Positions 33,341 to 42,585 of a DNA stretch of 64,000 nucleotides are shown one piece after another (within the stretch, counting starts at the first letter, position 1; each line of letters begins with the position of its first letter). Source of the stretch: Methanolobus psychrophilus R15 (lineage in GTDB: Archaea; Halobacteriota; Methanosarcinia; Methanosarcinales; Methanosarcinaceae); the NCBI GenBank assembly GCA_000306725.1, contig CP003083.1:2592042-2656041 (forward strand), written 5' to 3'. Both the position numbers and the translations under genes were made by a program. The notes beneath the pieces were generated by a model. It saw nothing but the letters and a program-made list of their open reading frames with translations, did no database searches and was not told the DNA's origin.

Positions 33341-35268
<1,928 letters not shown>

Positions 35269-35437
35269 TCGCTCCTTCTTTATCTTTAATAATGGAGGTG
35301 TTGTGCAGAGTTCAAAGTTAGGGATGAAGGACTTTGGTCAGCTCAGGTTTTGTTACTCGGGTTCACCAGGATCAATTTATGCGTTCACTTCTGCAACCGG
35401 AGAATAAAGTTTCGTGGGTGATGGGGGTTACAGTTTC

Positions 35438-35445
35438 ATATATAA
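35438..35445 (+). promoter_or_regulatory. TATA box for DEAD-box helicase gene
   Basis: ATATATAA about 100 bases upstream of the helicase ATG predicts a start of transcription near 35470 and a leader of about 70 bases that begins just before the hairpin at 35481-35504. Confidence 0.45.
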
Positions 35446-35480
35446 TGGGCCCTCTGTAGGTCTATCTATTATCGCTTATT

Positions 35481-35504
35481 AACAGGCCATTCACCTGGCC
35501 TGTT
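35481..35504 (+). promoter_or_regulatory. 5'-leader hairpin of DEAD-box helicase gene
   Basis: AACAGGCCA (35481-35489) and TGGCCTGTT (35496-35504) are perfect nine-base complements around a TTCACC loop. It would sit near the 5' end of the helicase mRNA. The deaD mRNA of Methanococcoides burtonii is reported to have a long cold-regulated leader, so a thermosensitive role is plausible. A T-run follows, so it could alternatively act as an attenuator. Confidence 0.5.
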
Positions 35505-35540
35505 TTGCAATAAATACACATTATAATTTCGAGGAATGAA

Positions 35541-36767
35541 ATGTTATTCAAAGACCTAAATCTTATAGACCCGCTTCAAAGGGCCCTTACTAAAGAAGGC
35601 TATATAGAGCCGACTCCCATTCAGGTACAGTCCATACCTCAACTGCTCAAGGGAAAAGATCTCATAGGCATTGCCCAGACAGGTACAGGCAAAACTGCCG
35701 CCTTTGTGCTGCCTATACTTCAAAGGATGCACGAAAAGCACAAGCATACGACTCCGGGATTTCCCAGGGTGCTTGTGCTTGCACCTACAAGAGAACTTGC
35801 TGCGCAGATCGGTGACAGTTTTGCCGCATACGGTCATTTCCTGCATTTCAAGCACACAGTCGTATTTGGCGGCGTAAGTCAGGTACCGCAGTTCAAGAGT
35901 ATCACAAAGGGCGTGGATATATTAGTGGCCACTCCGGGAAGGCTGCTTGACCTGATGGACCAGGGTATTGTCAAGCTCAGCGGTGTCGAGTTCTTTGTTC
36001 TAGACGAGGCTGACAGGATGCTTGATATGGGATTCATCAAGGATGTCAACCGGATCGTATCGATGCTGCCTCACAAGCGCCAGTCGCTCTTCTTCTCGGC
36101 TACCATGTCTCCTCAGATAAGCGAGCTTACTAGGAGGCTTCTGACAGACCCTGTGCGTGTTGAGGTGACTCCTCAGGCAACGACTGTGGAACGTATAGAG
36201 CAGAAGGTCTTTTTCGTGGACCAGGAAAATAAGGATGCTCTTCTCTTGAGTCTTCTCCAGCAGGATCACCTGAACTGCGTACTGGTGTTCACCCGCACAA
36301 AGCACAGGGCGAACAAGGTGGCACAAACGCTTAACAAGAACCGTGTGGGTGCTGATGCTATTCATGGTAACAAATCGCAGGCCCATCGTACCCGGGTGAT
36401 GGAGAGTTTCAGGGCCGGAGAACTTCAGGTGCTGGTAGCGACCGATATCGCAGCACGAGGCATCGATATTGAGGACATATCCCACGTTATAAATTATGAC
36501 TTGCCCAACGAACCTGAGAGCTATGTGCATAGAATAGGGCGTACGGCGCGGGCAGGAGCAGAGGGAACGGCATATTCCTTCTGTGCGGCGGATGAACGCA
36601 GTTTCCTTCGCAGTATTGAAAAGCTCACAAGGCTGGAAATAGATGTAATGAGGCACCGCTATCATTCACAGCGGGCGCAGGATGCAGTGGGTGAAGAGGC
36701 AAAGCCGGCTCCTAGAAAGCCGCGTGCTCCTCCAAGAAGGCCGGGGCACGGCACCCATAAACGATAG
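35541..36767 (+). CDS. deaD: DEAD-box RNA helicase
   Basis: ATP-dependent RNA helicase of 408 residues, RhlE/DeaD-like. Motifs in order: Q motif PTPIQ, motif I AQTGTGKT, Ia PTRELAAQ, Ib TPGRLLDLM, II DEAD, III SAT, then helicase-C with V and VI including VATDIAARGIDI and HRIGRTARAG. A short basic C-terminus (RKPRAPPRRPGHGTHKR) adds RNA affinity. Expected to unwind structured mRNA and rRNA, and in related methanogens is induced by cold. SD cgagga precedes the ATG. Confidence 0.95.
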   Translation: MLFKDLNLIDPLQRALTKEGYIEPTPIQVQSIPQLLKGKDLIGIAQTGTGKTAAFVLPILQRMHEKHKHTTPGFPRVLVLAPTRELAAQIGDSFAAYGHFLHFKHTVVFGGVSQVPQFKSITKGVDILVATPGRLLDLMDQGIVKLSGVEFFVLDEADRMLDMGFIKDVNRIVSMLPHKRQSLFFSATMSPQISELTRRLLTDPVRVEVTPQATTVERIEQKVFFVDQENKDALLLSLLQQDHLNCVLVFTRTKHRANKVAQTLNKNRVGADAIHGNKSQAHRTRVMESFRAGELQVLVATDIAARGIDIEDISHVINYDLPNEPESYVHRIGRTARAGAEGTAYSFCAADERSFLRSIEKLTRLEIDVMRHRYHSQRAQDAVGEEAKPAPRKPRAPPRRPGHGTHKR

Positions 36768-36777
36768 ATCCGACATT

Positions 36778-36802
36778 AGCCGGGTCCGGCTCTTATTTTT
36801 TT
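36778..36802 (+). terminator. Hairpin plus poly-T terminator after helicase gene
   Basis: AGCCGG (36778-36783) and CCGGCT (36786-36791) form a perfect GC-rich hairpin nine bases beyond the stop, followed by TTATTTTTTT to 36802. This looks like a bacterial intrinsic terminator and also satisfies the archaeal T-run rule. Confidence 0.6.
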
Positions 36803-36924
36803 GGGCGGCGGGAATAAGGGCAGGTGGGGATAACATTTGCTTGACAGGCACCAAAGGATGCCTGGTGCATGCAGATTAAATTATTAAGGGAGAAAACTGC
36901 AATACTAATATGGGAGATGATATC

Positions 36925-39582
36925 ATGGATCTGAATCGTTTCACTCAGAAGGCCCAGGAGGCCGTTCAGGATTCAACAACGATTGCTGCGAGGTACAGAA
37001 ACCAGCAGATAGATTGCGAACACCTGTTGCTTGCGATGCTCGAGCAGACGGGGGGACTTGTGCCTACCTTGCTCAAGAATCTGGATGCAGACCTCGACCG
37101 GGTGACGCAAAATGTGGAGTTACATCTGGAAGGACTGCCTCAGGTATCGGGTCCTGGTGGCGAGCAGGTCTACATGACACAGACCCTGCGGCGTGTGCTT
37201 GATTCTGCCTTACGGGAAGCGGGCAAGATGAAGGACGAGTATGTCAGCGTCGAGCATCTCCTGCTTGCAATAGCCGGTGAGAGCAGTTGCTCGAGCAGTA
37301 AAGTGCTTTCCTCAGAGGGCATTACAAGGGACCGGCTTCTCAATGCCATCAAGGATATAAGGGGCAATAGGAGGGTGACATCTGAGAACCCGGAGGGCAC
37401 CATGGAGCCTTTGAAGAAGTACGGTATCGATTTTACAGAGCTTGCATCCCAGGGAAAACTTGACCCTGTCATAGGCAGGGACCAGGAAATAAGGCATTCC
37501 ATAGAGATCCTTTCCCGGCGCAGAAAGAACAATCCTGTGCTTATCGGCGAGGCGGGTGTGGGTAAGACCGCTATCGTGGAGGGACTTGCCCAGCGTGTGG
37601 CAAAGAGGGATGTGCCCGAGGCTATGAAGGATAAAAGGATCATAGCTCTTGATATGGGTGCACTTGTTGCTGGTGCCAAGTTCAGGGGTGAATTTGAGGA
37701 AAGGCTCAAGGCCGTTCTTAAGGAAGTGTCCGATTCTGAAGGTCAAATCATCCTGTTCATCGATGAGATCCACACAATCGTAGGTGCGGGTGCCACGGAG
37801 GGTGCAATGGACGCCGGCAACCTGCTAAAACCCATGCTTGCCCGCGGCGAGTTGCATTGTATAGGCGCAACTACCCTGGATGAGTACCGCAAGTACATCG
37901 AGAAGGATGCTGCCCTGGAGCGCCGTTTCCTTCCGGTACTTGTGGAAGAGCCCACTGTCGAGGACACTATTTCGATACTTCGCGGCCTGAAGGAAAAGTA
38001 TGAGGTACACCACGGAGTACGCCTGAAAGACTCTGCACTGGTCGCGGCCGCTGTAATGAGCAGCCGTTATATTTCCGACAGGTTCCTGCCTGATAAGGCA
38101 ATAGACCTTGTGGACGAGGCCGCTGCCAAGAAGAGGACTGCCATCGACAGCAAGCCTGCCGAGCTCGATGAGGCTGACCGCAAGATAATGCAGCTTGAGA
38201 TCGAGCGTGAGGCGCTTAAGAAGGAAAAGGACGAGGCTTCCAAAGAGAGGCTTGAAGCCCTGGAAAAGGAGCTTGCTGATACAAGGGCAGAGTCCGATGC
38301 CATGAGGGCCAGATGGGACATGGAAAAGCAGGCCATCTCAAAATTGAATGCCCTTAAGCAGCAGATAGAGGATACCAAGGTGCAGCTTGAGCTTGCCGAG
38401 AATGACAGCAATCTGGAGCTTGCATCAAGGCTGAAGTACGGCACTCTTATCCCTCTTCAGAAGGAGTACACGCAGGAAGAGACTCGTCTGAAGGACATGC
38501 AGGGTGACATGCTCCTGAGTGAAGAGGTAGGCGAGGAGGATATTGCCGAGGTAGTGAGTCAGTGGACCCGCATACCTATAACCCGGCTGATGGAAGGCCA
38601 GCGTGAAAAGCTCATGCATTTCGAGGATAATCTGCACAACCGTATCATCGGACAGGAGGAAGCCGTCAAGGCTGTGTCTGATGCTGTAATACGCAATTAT
38701 GCCGGTATCAAGGATCCGAAGCGGCCAATTGGCAGCTTCATATTCCTGGGGCCTACGGGCGTGGGCAAGACCGAGCTTGTGAAGGCTTTGGCGGCAGAAC
38801 TGTTCAACGATGAGAATAGCATGATACGCATTGACATGTCGGAGTACATGGAAAAGCACACTGTTGCGCGCCTCATCGGGGCTCCACCCGGCTATATCGG
38901 CTATGATGAGGGCGGCCAGCTCACCGAAGCTGTGCGCAGGCGGCCTTACTCTGTGGTGTTGTTCGATGAGATAGAGAAAGCGCATCCGGATGTTTTCAAC
39001 GTCATGTTGCAGATACTGGACGACGGCAGGCTCACAGACTCTAAGGGGCGTACTGTGGACTTCAAGAATACACTGATAACGATGACTTCCAACATTTTCG
39101 GAGGCGATCTTACCCAGCTGCTGGGTGACAGCAGCGGCACTTACAGGCCTGAGCAGGGTTTCCCGCAACCGCGGAGCAGGAAGGAGGTTGACTATGCCGA
39201 GCTACAGATAAGGGCCATGCAGGAGCTTGGCAAGTATTTCAGGCCGGAGTTCCTCAACCGTATCGATGAGGTTGTTATCTTCCATACGCTCAAGCCCGAA
39301 GAACTGGCGCAGATAGTTGATATCAAGGTTGCTGACCTGCAGGAACGGCTGAAGGAGAAACGTATAACCCTCAACATCACAGAAGATGCAAAGCTCTATC
39401 TTGGCCGGGCAGGTTACAGCGAAACCTTCGGTGCAAGACCTCTTAAGCGTGTCATACAGAACGAGGTCGAGACAAAGATCGCCAAACTCATAGTTGCGGG
39501 CAAGGTGCCTGAAGGCTCCACAGTGACAGTGAATTCCGATGGCAAGAGTATATCGGTAAGTGTCATTGAAGCTGCAGGATAA
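36925..39582 (+). CDS. clpB: ATP-dependent chaperone ClpB
   Basis: Hsp100 disaggregase of 885 residues, bacterial type. N-terminal Clp repeat domain ([35 protein letters not shown]), AAA1 with Walker [17 protein letters not shown] and Walker [10 protein letters not shown], the M-domain coiled coil around residues 390-525 ([17 protein letters not shown]), AAA2 with [15 protein letters not shown] and [16 protein letters not shown], and the C-terminal [15 protein letters not shown] 36925 has SD ggag seven bases upstream; an in-frame ATG at 36910 does not. Works with DnaK/GroEL on aggregates. Confidence 0.95.
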
Positions 39583-39667: not shown

Positions 39668-41662
39668 TTACAGCCCCAGTGCCATCCTGATAAGGACTAT
39701 CAAGCCGACAAAAAGATTAAGCACGACAAGTCCGCCTACTGCCATGGCGCCTATCTTTATCATGTTTGTATTCAGCTTTGAACCCGTATCAATGAGTGAA
39801 AGGGCTTTTTGTACTGATTCCATGGTTTCGTTTGCTTTTGTAATTGCCTCTTTTGATTCTGTCAGGTTTGCATTGAGGTTGTCAAGCAACAGGTCTATCC
39901 TTGGTTGTTCTTCTGTCCTGACTGTCCGAAGCACCGCGTTCAATTCTTCAAGAGTACCCGGCACGCCAGTGTTGAGATTGTCAAGTAGCGCGTCGATACG
40001 CGGCTGTTCTTCTGTCCTGACGACCTGGAGCATACCATGTAGTTCCTCGAGTGTCCTTGGGACCTCTGCGTTAAGGTTATCAAGCAATATGTCTATGCGC
40101 GGCTGCTCTTCAGTTCTTACGCGTTTCAGGACCCCGTGGAGTTCTTCAAGTGTCCCGGGGATAACTCCGGGAACCTCTACCCATTTATTTGCCAGTTTCT
40201 CATATTTTTTATCTAGCTTCTGGGCCTGCCTGGCGTAGAACGCCTTTTGCGCCTTCATGGAATCATAGTTGCGCTGATAGCCATCGAACTTGGTACTAAG
40301 GGATGCGGATATCCTGGCGCCGTGTGGCTGCATTGAGGAATGCATATAGGTATTGGAATTGGACGCTACAGTCCCTGTTGTGACAGCTGCGGCGGCGGAA
40401 AGGGCTCTTAGACTTACGGTGACATCCTTCGCTGCAAGGGTATCTCCTTCTTCCAATGAGCTTACAATAGCACTATTGGCCTTGGGCGCGATGGGACTGT
40501 CTTTACTGGCAGCTGATCCTATGCTTGGTCCTGCAGTTGAGCCTGATACTCCCTCGACTTTAACGATATTTCCAGCTTCACGAATGACACCAGTTTCTAA
40601 TGTGGCATCTTTCCCGATAATGGTGCCTGCATTTATGGAATCTTCCCGGACTGCTCCGATGATCACTGCTTCATCTTTTATATTTACTACAGTGGTCATG
40701 TCGTCCTTTACGTTAACGACGCTGGATTCGTCTTTTATGTTAATGACGTTGGTTATATCATCTTTGATGTTTCCTGCATTGATGGTGCTGTCGATGATAT
40801 TGCTAATATTCATGACACTGTCAAGAATATCTGATGCATAGATGTTCTCTTTTGGGACCCTGATAGAGTCTATCCCTATCCGGAAGACATTTTCCGGGTA
40901 GACGCGGATCACATCCGCCATCCGGGATGTGAGAATATCCTTTCTTGTCAGCAGTTTGTTATAGTATTGTTTGTCAACCCTGAGAGCTTCAAGCTTGTCT
41001 TTGAGAGACTCGCTCTGCTCAGTGACAGGGATCGATACTTTTGTTGTGGTCACAAAGAGCTTTTTGATCTCCTGGAGTATCTCCTCGCTAACTTCAAGGT
41101 TATCATCCAGAGATGCCAGGATATCTTCTATCATGGGCTGCTCGATCGTGTTGAAACGCTCAAGCGATTCCTTTGCGTTGTATATGCCGGTTGTCAGCAC
41201 CCCGGGCTCCTGATAGTATATGTCCTGTATCTCCTTATTGACTGCTGCAAGCCTGGCAAGAAGCTGGAACTGTTTGATTACCAGGTCCATGTTCGATACA
41301 ATGTCCCAGAAGTTAAAGCTGAAACTTGAAGGGTTGCTGACACCAAGCTCCTTAAGTTCGTTCTCTACCTTTGTTTTTTCCTGCTTCAGGGCATTAAGCC
41401 TTGATTTCTCTTCGTCCCACAGGTCTGCCTCGCTTCTTGGTGTCAGCCTGTTGATAGTCAGGAGCTCTTCCGCTTCTTTCAGAGTGGATATTAGCTGCTC
41501 TCCTAATGTCTCGATCGTTGAACCGATTACTGCAATTGCAAGTCCTGCTTCTTCTGCGGCATCGCCTGCAGATTCTGCTGCATTGCCTGCCTGATAGGCA
41601 GCTTTTCCTATGGTATATAATCCACCTGTTGCAATACCTGCAACAACATCAAACCATCCCAT
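39668..41662 (-). CDS. Unrecognised 664-residue repeat protein, C-terminal membrane anchor
   Basis: No family recognised. The N-terminus (residues 5-60) is Gly/Ala-rich and amphipathic without a signal-peptide cleavage site. Helical, charged sequence follows to about 250. Residues 298-334 hold four short NxKDDxTxV-type repeats; 370-450 is Ser/Ala-rich low complexity. Residues 502-600 are three 33-residue tandem repeats (P-x-TLEELHG-x-L...RTEEQPRID-x-LLDNLN), with a degenerate copy near 165-195. A strong hydrophobic span at about 638-660 ends the protein. The mRNA has its own promoter region upstream (about 41700-41760). The design suggests a tethered coiled-coil or scaffold protein. Function unknown. 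Confidence 0.75.
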   Translation of the reverse strand: MGWFDVVAGIATGGLYTIGKAAYQAGNAAESAGDAAEEAGLAIAVIGSTIETLGEQLISTLKEAEELLTINRLTPRSEADLWDEEKSRLNALKQEKTKVENELKELGVSNPSSFSFNFWDIVSNMDLVIKQFQLLARLAAVNKEIQDIYYQEPGVLTTGIYNAKESLERFNTIEQPMIEDILASLDDNLEVSEEILQEIKKLFVTTTKVSIPVTEQSESLKDKLEALRVDKQYYNKLLTRKDILTSRMADVIRVYPENVFRIGIDSIRVPKENIYASDILDSVMNISNIIDSTINAGNIKDDITNVINIKDESSVVNVKDDMTTVVNIKDEAVIIGAVREDSINAGTIIGKDATLETGVIREAGNIVKVEGVSGSTAGPSIGSAASKDSPIAPKANSAIVSSLEEGDTLAAKDVTVSLRALSAAAAVTTGTVASNSNTYMHSSMQPHGARISASLSTKFDGYQRNYDSMKAQKAFYARQAQKLDKKYEKLANKWVEVPGVIPGTLEELHGVLKRVRTEEQPRIDILLDNLNAEVPRTLEELHGMLQVVRTEEQPRIDALLDNLNTGVPGTLEELNAVLRTVRTEEQPRIDLLLDNLNANLTESKEAITKANETMESVQKALSLIDTGSKLNTNMIKIGAMAVGGLVVLNLFVGLIVLIRMALGL
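39863..40159 (-). repeat. Three 99-base tandem coding repeats
   Basis: Three in-frame 33-codon repeats in the gene at 39668-41662, each with the core TEEQPRID and LLDNLN. The protein units differ at about a third of positions; the sequences GGTTGTTCTTCTGTCCT and GGCTGTTCTTCTGTCCT are visible at 39902 and 40003 in the plus-strand reading, and GGCTGCTCTTCAGTTCT at 40102, a spacing of about 99 bases. Confidence 0.85.
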
Positions 41663-41892
41663 GTTTTTTCCTCCGTTGAATGTTTTATAATGTTTGTTGA
41701 ATGTGCTATTGTTATTTTATCAACTTCTGAAAATATAAACCTGTCTATTTTTAAAACAAATGATAACTTGAGGAGGATCGTCTCCTGTCTTTCTGGAAAG
41801 GTTTTTATAGACTGATGTCACAGTTGTGTATGTTTTTCACACATCCCTATTCAAAATCTGTCTGGACAATTTATACATGGAGATCGAACAAA

Positions 41893-42585
41893 ATGGAACT
41901 TAAAGAAATTAACAAATTTGGACGTGAGCTTAAAGAAATATTAAACCTGAAGACCTCTCCTGTCGCAGTCGGGCTTGCTGCTGATGAGAACGACATTCCT
42001 CAAGGCATGGAAAAGATTGGTGAATCAACCAGGCATTGCCAGATGGTGGACAATGTAAGGAGAACTGGCTCTGCATTCTATACTACTCTGGATGACCATC
42101 AGTGTAAAGGCGGGGCTGCTGTCATGGGCATGAGTGAAATGGGAGAGAAACTGAAGAACGGCGAGTTCTACTTCCACCTTAATCACTTTGGCAACATTGA
42201 AGCTGCAAGGAAGACCATGGAAAAAGTGCCTTATGTAACACCATTTTCTGTCAAGTCCATCATGTACGCTCCGCTGGAACAGGCAACATTCATACCGGAC
42301 ATTGTAGTCATAGTCACGACTCCCCGACATGTTATGGAACTGTCCCAGGCTTTACTTTACACTTCCGGCGGCAGGATAGTTTCAAGCTTTGCAGGCAAGC
42401 AGAGCCTGTGCGGTGATGGCGTTGCACTCCCATATACTACAGGGGAGGTAGGTGTGACCGTAGGTTGCAGCGGAAGTCGCAAGTACACCCAGATACAGGA
42501 TGAAGAGATGATCATCAGTATTCCTGTTGAAAAGCTTCCTGAACTGGTGAAGGCTGCAGACAAGATGTTTGGCCAGCCCTGTTAA
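41893..42585 (+). CDS. DUF169 family protein
   Basis: A 230-residue soluble protein from ATG 41893, common in methanogens and other anaerobes. Typical elements: FGRELKEILNLKTSPVAVGL, RHCQMV, the CKGGAAVMGMSE segment, FSVKSIMYAPLEQATFIPDIVVIVTTP, KQSLCGDGVALPYTTGEVGVTVGCSGSRKYTQI in segments. Cysteines at the HCQM, QCKGG, LCGDG and GCSGS positions are conserved in the family and could bind metal or heme-type cofactors. No established function. Only weak SD is seen; TATA-like tttttatag lies at 41800. Confidence 0.85.
   Translation: MELKEINKFGRELKEILNLKTSPVAVGLAADENDIPQGMEKIGESTRHCQMVDNVRRTGSAFYTTLDDHQCKGGAAVMGMSEMGEKLKNGEFYFHLNHFGNIEAARKTMEKVPYVTPFSVKSIMYAPLEQATFIPDIVVIVTTPRHVMELSQALLYTSGGRIVSSFAGKQSLCGDGVALPYTTGEVGVTVGCSGSRKYTQIQDEEMIISIPVEKLPELVKAADKMFGQPC

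Follow-up and report, generated by a model that had tools for sequence, protein, structure and literature searches.

We describe a gene of Methanolobus psychrophilus R15 whose 664-residue product carries two homologous modules, one in each half of the protein, on either side of a highly variable linker, together with a variable number of 33-residue units and a single membrane span at the extreme C-terminus. Our preferred interpretation, to which we give a probability of roughly 45%, is that the product is a stand-alone, tail-anchored rod that would face the cytoplasm and act as a membrane tether or scaffold. Its main rivals are a stalk displayed at the cell surface and a membrane protein with a part in defence. 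This is a real, well-conserved and selected gene of methanogens, beyond a chance open reading frame, and it belongs to a sizeable conserved methanogen family with a clear modular plan that is absent from the curated libraries searched. Tail-anchored coiled-coil proteins are known as a kind, and the family is not a categorically new one.

The window, the whole stretch of 64,000 nucleotides that was analyzed, is part of a single-contig genome of 3,072,769 bp, in which the gene is present in a single copy; its closest relatives are Methanolobus genomes. The reading frame is intact and starts with ATG, and every element listed for it in the initial annotation is present. It is convergent with the ClpB gene (36910-39582, plus strand) and divergent from a DUF169 gene (41815-42585, plus strand). 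An Rfam search gave no match. The features of the gene are as follows.

39668..41662, minus strand: whole gene, encoding a probable stand-alone, tail-anchored helical protein of 664 amino acids (open reading frame and translation, conservation, purifying selection)
41670..41674, minus strand: Shine-Dalgarno sequence GGAGG, 7 nt before the ATG (read from the sequence)
41730..41739, minus strand: putative TATA-like box TTTATATTTT, about 70 nt before the ATG (read from the sequence)
41453..41662, minus strand: residues 1-70, conserved Gly/Ala-rich amphipathic helices (identity, hydropathy and moment, model)
41045..41221, minus strand: residues 148-206, N-terminal copy of the EPGV...EQPxIE module (conservation and profile match)
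40901..41011, minus strand: residues 218-254, first arm of a predicted antiparallel hairpin (AlphaFold2)
40331..40891, minus strand: residues 258-444, variable linker, predicted to be disordered (conservation, pLDDT, dN/dS)
40190..40324, minus strand: residues 447-491, second arm of the predicted hairpin (AlphaFold2)
40067..40165, minus strand: residues 500-532, 33-residue unit 1, part of the C-terminal EPGV/EQPRID module copy
39968..40066, minus strand: residues 533-565, 33-residue unit 2, missing in several relatives
39869..39967, minus strand: residues 566-598, 33-residue unit 3
39689..39763, minus strand: residues 634-658, C-terminal membrane span (Kyte-Doolittle; conserved in aligned members)

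Comparison with the two closest relatives, whose proteins are 94% identical, gave an overall dN/dS of 0.11-0.16. The ratio is 0.06-0.09 for residues 1-258 and 0.03-0.07 for residues 441-664, and rises to 0.25-0.42 in the linker between them. By this measure both ends are under strong purifying selection and the linker is relaxed, a pattern that, along with the profile match between the two modules described below, supports the tether or scaffold reading. Orthologues were identified in 43 of the 112 genomes of the taxonomic family (window included), in 18 of 27 genomes of the genus and in 37 of 393 genomes sampled across the phylum; in the order to which a Methanomicrobiaceae MAG belongs, 10 of 199 genomes carry the gene. 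Among the named records are Methanolobus, Methanococcoides, Methanohalophilus, one Methanosarcina, GoM-Arc1 and Methanoculleus, as well as two MAGs of Chloroflexota and one of Candidatus Brockarchaeota. About 300 genomes were sampled from each of the phyla of the Anaerolineae and Brockarchaeota members; these contained no further clear member, only one marginal partial match (2.8e-4). Misbinning of the Chloroflexota members is unlikely given the bacterial-type genes on their contigs (PlsY and a D-Ala-D-Ala ligase-type gene on L095, a CBS/DHH-type CCA-adding enzyme on L099). Since the tree, in addition, places the two Chloroflexota proteins beside GoM-Arc1 (support 99/97), transfer of the gene between domains is likely.

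Searches of Pfam, NCBIfam, PHROGs, PADLOC and, by sequence, the PDB returned nothing significant for the window protein, in agreement with the earlier statement that it matches no known family; a match to a phage tape-measure protein or a surface scaffold was likewise absent. No curated family in the libraries searched covers it, and no paper on it came up in the literature search. Weak matches to scattered coiled-coil families were set aside. Among these, DUF948 (PF06103; best E 0.011, 5 of 28 members) and DUF1664 (PF07889; best E 0.0015, 8 of 28 members) do not match the window protein; both are also helical, coiled-coil families to which single members match weakly. DUF948 proteins have their span at the N-terminus. 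The apolipoprotein A1/A4/E profile reached E 0.0086 in 3 of 28 members, and we do not assign the protein to that family. The six weak PHROGs matches (best E 0.02) include none named as a tape measure. A phage tape-measure identity was rejected in view of chromosomal housekeeping neighbours, and this identity and an origin from a phage or mobile element were both discarded given that no relative was found among plasmids, phages and viral contigs. Neither Pfam nor NCBIfam revealed an enzyme signature in the window protein. Outside the genus, no operon partner is conserved across the loci compared. Both of these negative results support the tether or scaffold reading.

The protein has only one strong hydrophobic span (Kyte-Doolittle 19-mer maximum 2.67, start residue 640), at approximately residues 634-658 of 664, which ends 6 residues from the C-terminus and is conserved from Methanolobus to the Brockarchaeota and Chloroflexota members. 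At the other end, the conserved start MxWxDxV has no positive n-region, hydropathy in 19-mer windows peaks at 1.07 (residue 1) and 1.23 (residue 40), and no stretch resembles a signal peptide. With its only span within about 30 residues of the C-terminus, the protein shares the topology of tail-anchored proteins, which likewise have one extreme C-terminal span, no signal-like N-terminus and a predicted cytoplasmic bulk; they form a class by topology, not by descent. Because a signal peptide is absent, the bulk of the protein would be expected on the cytoplasmic side, and the persistence of this arrangement as far as Chloroflexota supports our preferred reading. The C-terminal span could also anchor an outward-facing stalk or surface protein, as likened to many archaeal surface proteins, with linker and hairpin outside the cell. 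A hypervariable polar linker combined with a C-terminal span is common in exposed proteins, and the patchy distribution of the gene fits a surface trait; the low N-terminal hydropathy peaks, the missing n-region and the location of the sole span at the very end of the chain nevertheless make such a stalk unlikely.

The amphipathic Gly/Ala-rich N-terminus that had been described is present and conserved (mean pairwise identity of residues 1-70, 0.64 in 30 members, nearly as high as in the modules), but it is only modestly hydrophobic and no hydropathy window within it reaches the level of a membrane span. AlphaFold2 predicts helices at residues 3-24 and 33-68, with low confidence, and the hydrophobic moment of the N-terminal helices is about 0.3-0.5. 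Such Ala/Gly-rich amphipathic, well-conserved helices might coat a lipid or storage body that the C-terminal span would hold near the membrane. We regard this as very doubtful, as apolipoprotein similarity is confined to the few weak matches given above and storage-body genes were not recognized nearby.

The best-conserved block of the protein is residues 148-206 (identity 0.71 in 30 members), with the consensus Y-x-EPGV...EVLERFNT-x-EQPxIEDILDS-x-DDNLE. The C-terminal half contains a second copy, at the start of the array of 33-residue units; the profiles of the two copies match each other in hhalign with 98.5% probability (3e-15). The conserved module is 50 residues long and common to both protein halves. 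In the genomes of 30 relatives, all matches to the EPGV/EQP module lie inside this gene, and no paralogue turned up among them. The segment IEQPMIEDILASLDDNL (residues 173-189), previously taken for an additional degenerate copy of the array, falls inside the N-terminal module and, far from being decayed, is part of the most conserved block and of one of two homologous modules.

The linker is the least conserved part of the protein (mean pairwise identity 0.19, length 61-215 residues in 30 members). It contains the NxKDD-like repeats (about residues 297-333) and the Ser/Ala-rich stretch (about residues 372-440) as well as the sole tandem DNA repeat found in the gene (27 bp x 1.9, 40701-40752). 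The structure prediction proposed in the initial annotation gave all-helical AlphaFold2 models, in keeping with the helical protein with one C-terminal membrane span that had been anticipated. In these models, residues 218-254 and 447-491 pair as an antiparallel hairpin with a disordered tip; pLDDT is about 80-90 over most of the first arm and mostly 23-37 in the linker. Short strands are predicted at residues 204-210 and 492-498, one beside each arm. By conservation and model, the NxKDD and Ser/Ala regions thus make up a fast-evolving linker between the two arms of a predicted hairpin. The overall shape is tentative, because mean pLDDT is 48-57, with values around 50 or lower over most of the N-terminus and the modules.

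A fold search against the PDB and viral models found nothing significant (Foldseek best E 0.15, with a low-confidence model), and VIA-align scored Z 7-9 to unrelated coiled coils; most of the structural neighbours are helical hairpins or long coiled coils. The lack of matches says little, since both models have a mean pLDDT below 60, and does not show that the fold is new. Structure-library matches are uninformative for long coiled coils. Tektin-like axonemal proteins, the chemoreceptor cytoplasmic domain and the V/A-ATPase central-stalk subunit likewise consist of two long helices folded back on each other (compared with the model at Z 7-9); they differ from the window protein in having about 10% identity, at Z scores expected of any long hairpin, and the tip is the least conserved part here. 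For the same reason we rejected the cytoplasmic hairpin of an MCP: the segment between the arms is the least conserved (0.19) rather than a highly conserved tip, and no Pfam or NCBIfam profile of the MCP signal domain matched the window protein. The all-helical models with confident arms, a disordered tip and coiled-coil neighbours support a rod-like tether or scaffold.

The three units of the C-terminal array, which lies between the predicted hairpin and the membrane span, are exactly 33 residues each and have 73-79% of residues in common. Between copies, about 60-70% of third codon positions are different, and where two codons specify the same residue their third positions agree in only 32-42% of cases. 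This divergence indicates that the units are old and held by selection on the protein, and it rules out recent slippage as their source. Repeat number in relatives, which had been suggested as a check, varies: units 1 and 2 are present in one locus (L072), units 1 and 3 in G040 (L034) and unit 1 alone in a third (L074). These subsets and the tree seem to fit loss of whole units from a three-unit ancestor better than recent growth, with separate gains possible. The proposed growth by duplication of one helical unit therefore holds for the deep duplication of the module, whereas recent changes look like deletion of units.

In other members, the stalk is lengthened by other steps: by 29 residues in Methanosarcina KYL-1 and in G278, by 22 in Methanomicrobiaceae, by 2 x 14 (28) in one Methanosarcinaceae genus and by 15 in several Methanococcoides. 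A predicted helical stretch separates the 33-residue units from the span. From the last EQP to the C-terminus there are 74-77 residues in most members and 80 in the clade of the window. The steps (33, 29, 22, 28, 15) all come to within about a quarter turn of full helical turns, which is what an uninterrupted helical stalk would need; for about five events, the agreement is only weakly better than chance and no more than suggestive.

In a Brockarchaeota MAG (L102:7860-10868) and a Methanomicrobiaceae MAG (L121:8302-11232, identical in location to L103), two overlapping open reading frames encode the protein; the break falls in the linker, where the ATG of the second frame sits at the stop codon of the first. 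The second half starts with an ATG of its own, so a pair of coupled genes is more likely than a programmed frameshift. In the tree these two loci form one group (100/100), with G133 beside it. Directly downstream, on the same strand, both have a gene of the LuxE family (acyl-protein synthetase, PF04443; Pfam 3e-8 and 1e-11), a neighbour of the split form that was not seen beside the fused form and is no relative of the protein. Such loci support two structural halves acting as partners, joined by a covalent link that appears dispensable, and they thereby support the tether or scaffold reading.

Under that reading, the C-terminal span would anchor the protein in the cell membrane, and a helical stalk with at least one EPGV/EQPRID unit would lead from there to the antiparallel hairpin, whose far tip would be the long disordered loop. 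The number of stalk units would set the distance between anchor and hairpin. The N-terminal half, which bears the same module once more and starts with the amphipathic helices, could bind a second membrane patch or a partner. A bolder version, which we consider a long shot, is a laterally exchanged archaeal membrane organizer: a two-module rod that binds membrane at both ends and links one membrane to another or to a cell structure, its reach tuned in different lineages through gain or loss of whole-turn helical units. In a divergent form its halves would be separate subunits, produced beside a LuxE-like acyl-activating enzyme. If true, two predicted membrane contacts and a length-variable rod would offer an entry into archaeal membrane organization, which is poorly known; a plain scaffold would be of moderate interest. 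The scheme predicts membrane anchoring, the hairpin, a stalk length set by unit number and association of the halves.

As stated initially, the gene is transcribed toward stress genes, being convergent with clpB. In the Methanolobus loci compared this orientation recurs, with groEL/ES and often hsp20 close by, and might suggest that the protein works at the membrane together with ClpB or the GroEL/Hsp20 cluster. We consider this highly improbable. Convergence means that the gene is not co-transcribed with clpB; neighbours differ in Methanococcoides, Methanohalophilus, Methanosarcina and members of Methanomicrobiales; and in six Methanolobus genomes clpB is present but the gene is not. Adjacency to ClpB is confined to the genus, and any meaning in it is unsupported. 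In five of the six gene-less genomes, clpB is followed by a facing gene for a TrmB-type regulator, about 100-380 bp away, and in the sixth by other genes; several gene-bearing Methanolobus have the gene between clpB and the TrmB-type regulator gene. No remnant was detected by tblastn in the six genomes. Because the gene is present or absent at one site without remnants, it appears to be gained and lost as one piece, and nothing links it to ClpB.

This behaviour would also suit a defence or conflict protein encoded by one gene and active in infected cells, with a coiled-coil sensor, a fast-evolving linker and a membrane effector end. Patchiness among close relatives, the likely cross-domain transfer and the rapid evolution of the linker are in line with it, and one member lies about 1 kb from a CRISPR array. 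On balance we find it rather unlikely: the core is under strong purifying, not diversifying, selection, the neighbours examined apart from that array are housekeeping genes, and the gene is absent from plasmids, phages and viral contigs. A known anti-phage defence protein was likewise rejected, as PADLOC gave no match for the window protein and the scattered matches, in at most 4 of 30 members, are as expected for coiled coils.

Several further observations concern the loci themselves. The CRISPR-like array (L066:4240-6549, G133) has 32 repeats (GTTTCAATCCTTGTTTTCCTGGATCTTGCTCTGCAAC) and stops about 1 kb short of the gene on its upstream side; no second case was seen. In the window, bacterial-type groES/groEL, a DEAD-box helicase and clpB lie in a row (33341-39582, plus strand). 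Many relatives have hsp20 between groEL and clpB, which the window lacks, and only part of the genus has the helicase. Many Methanolobus genomes (L136-L141, and L037, L045 and L047) have near clpB a cluster in which a TrmB-type regulator is accompanied by two exported proteins and a large RND/MMPL-like membrane protein; the window has no such cluster next to clpB. What looks like a remnant of the gene (L068:8000-8600, G275) retains about 60 N-terminal residues and the C-terminal span in different frames, with the middle missing. Finally, the copy in Methanosarcinaceae UBA9310 (L090:8001-9843) is broken in the linker by what looks like a simple frameshift, while its near relatives are intact.
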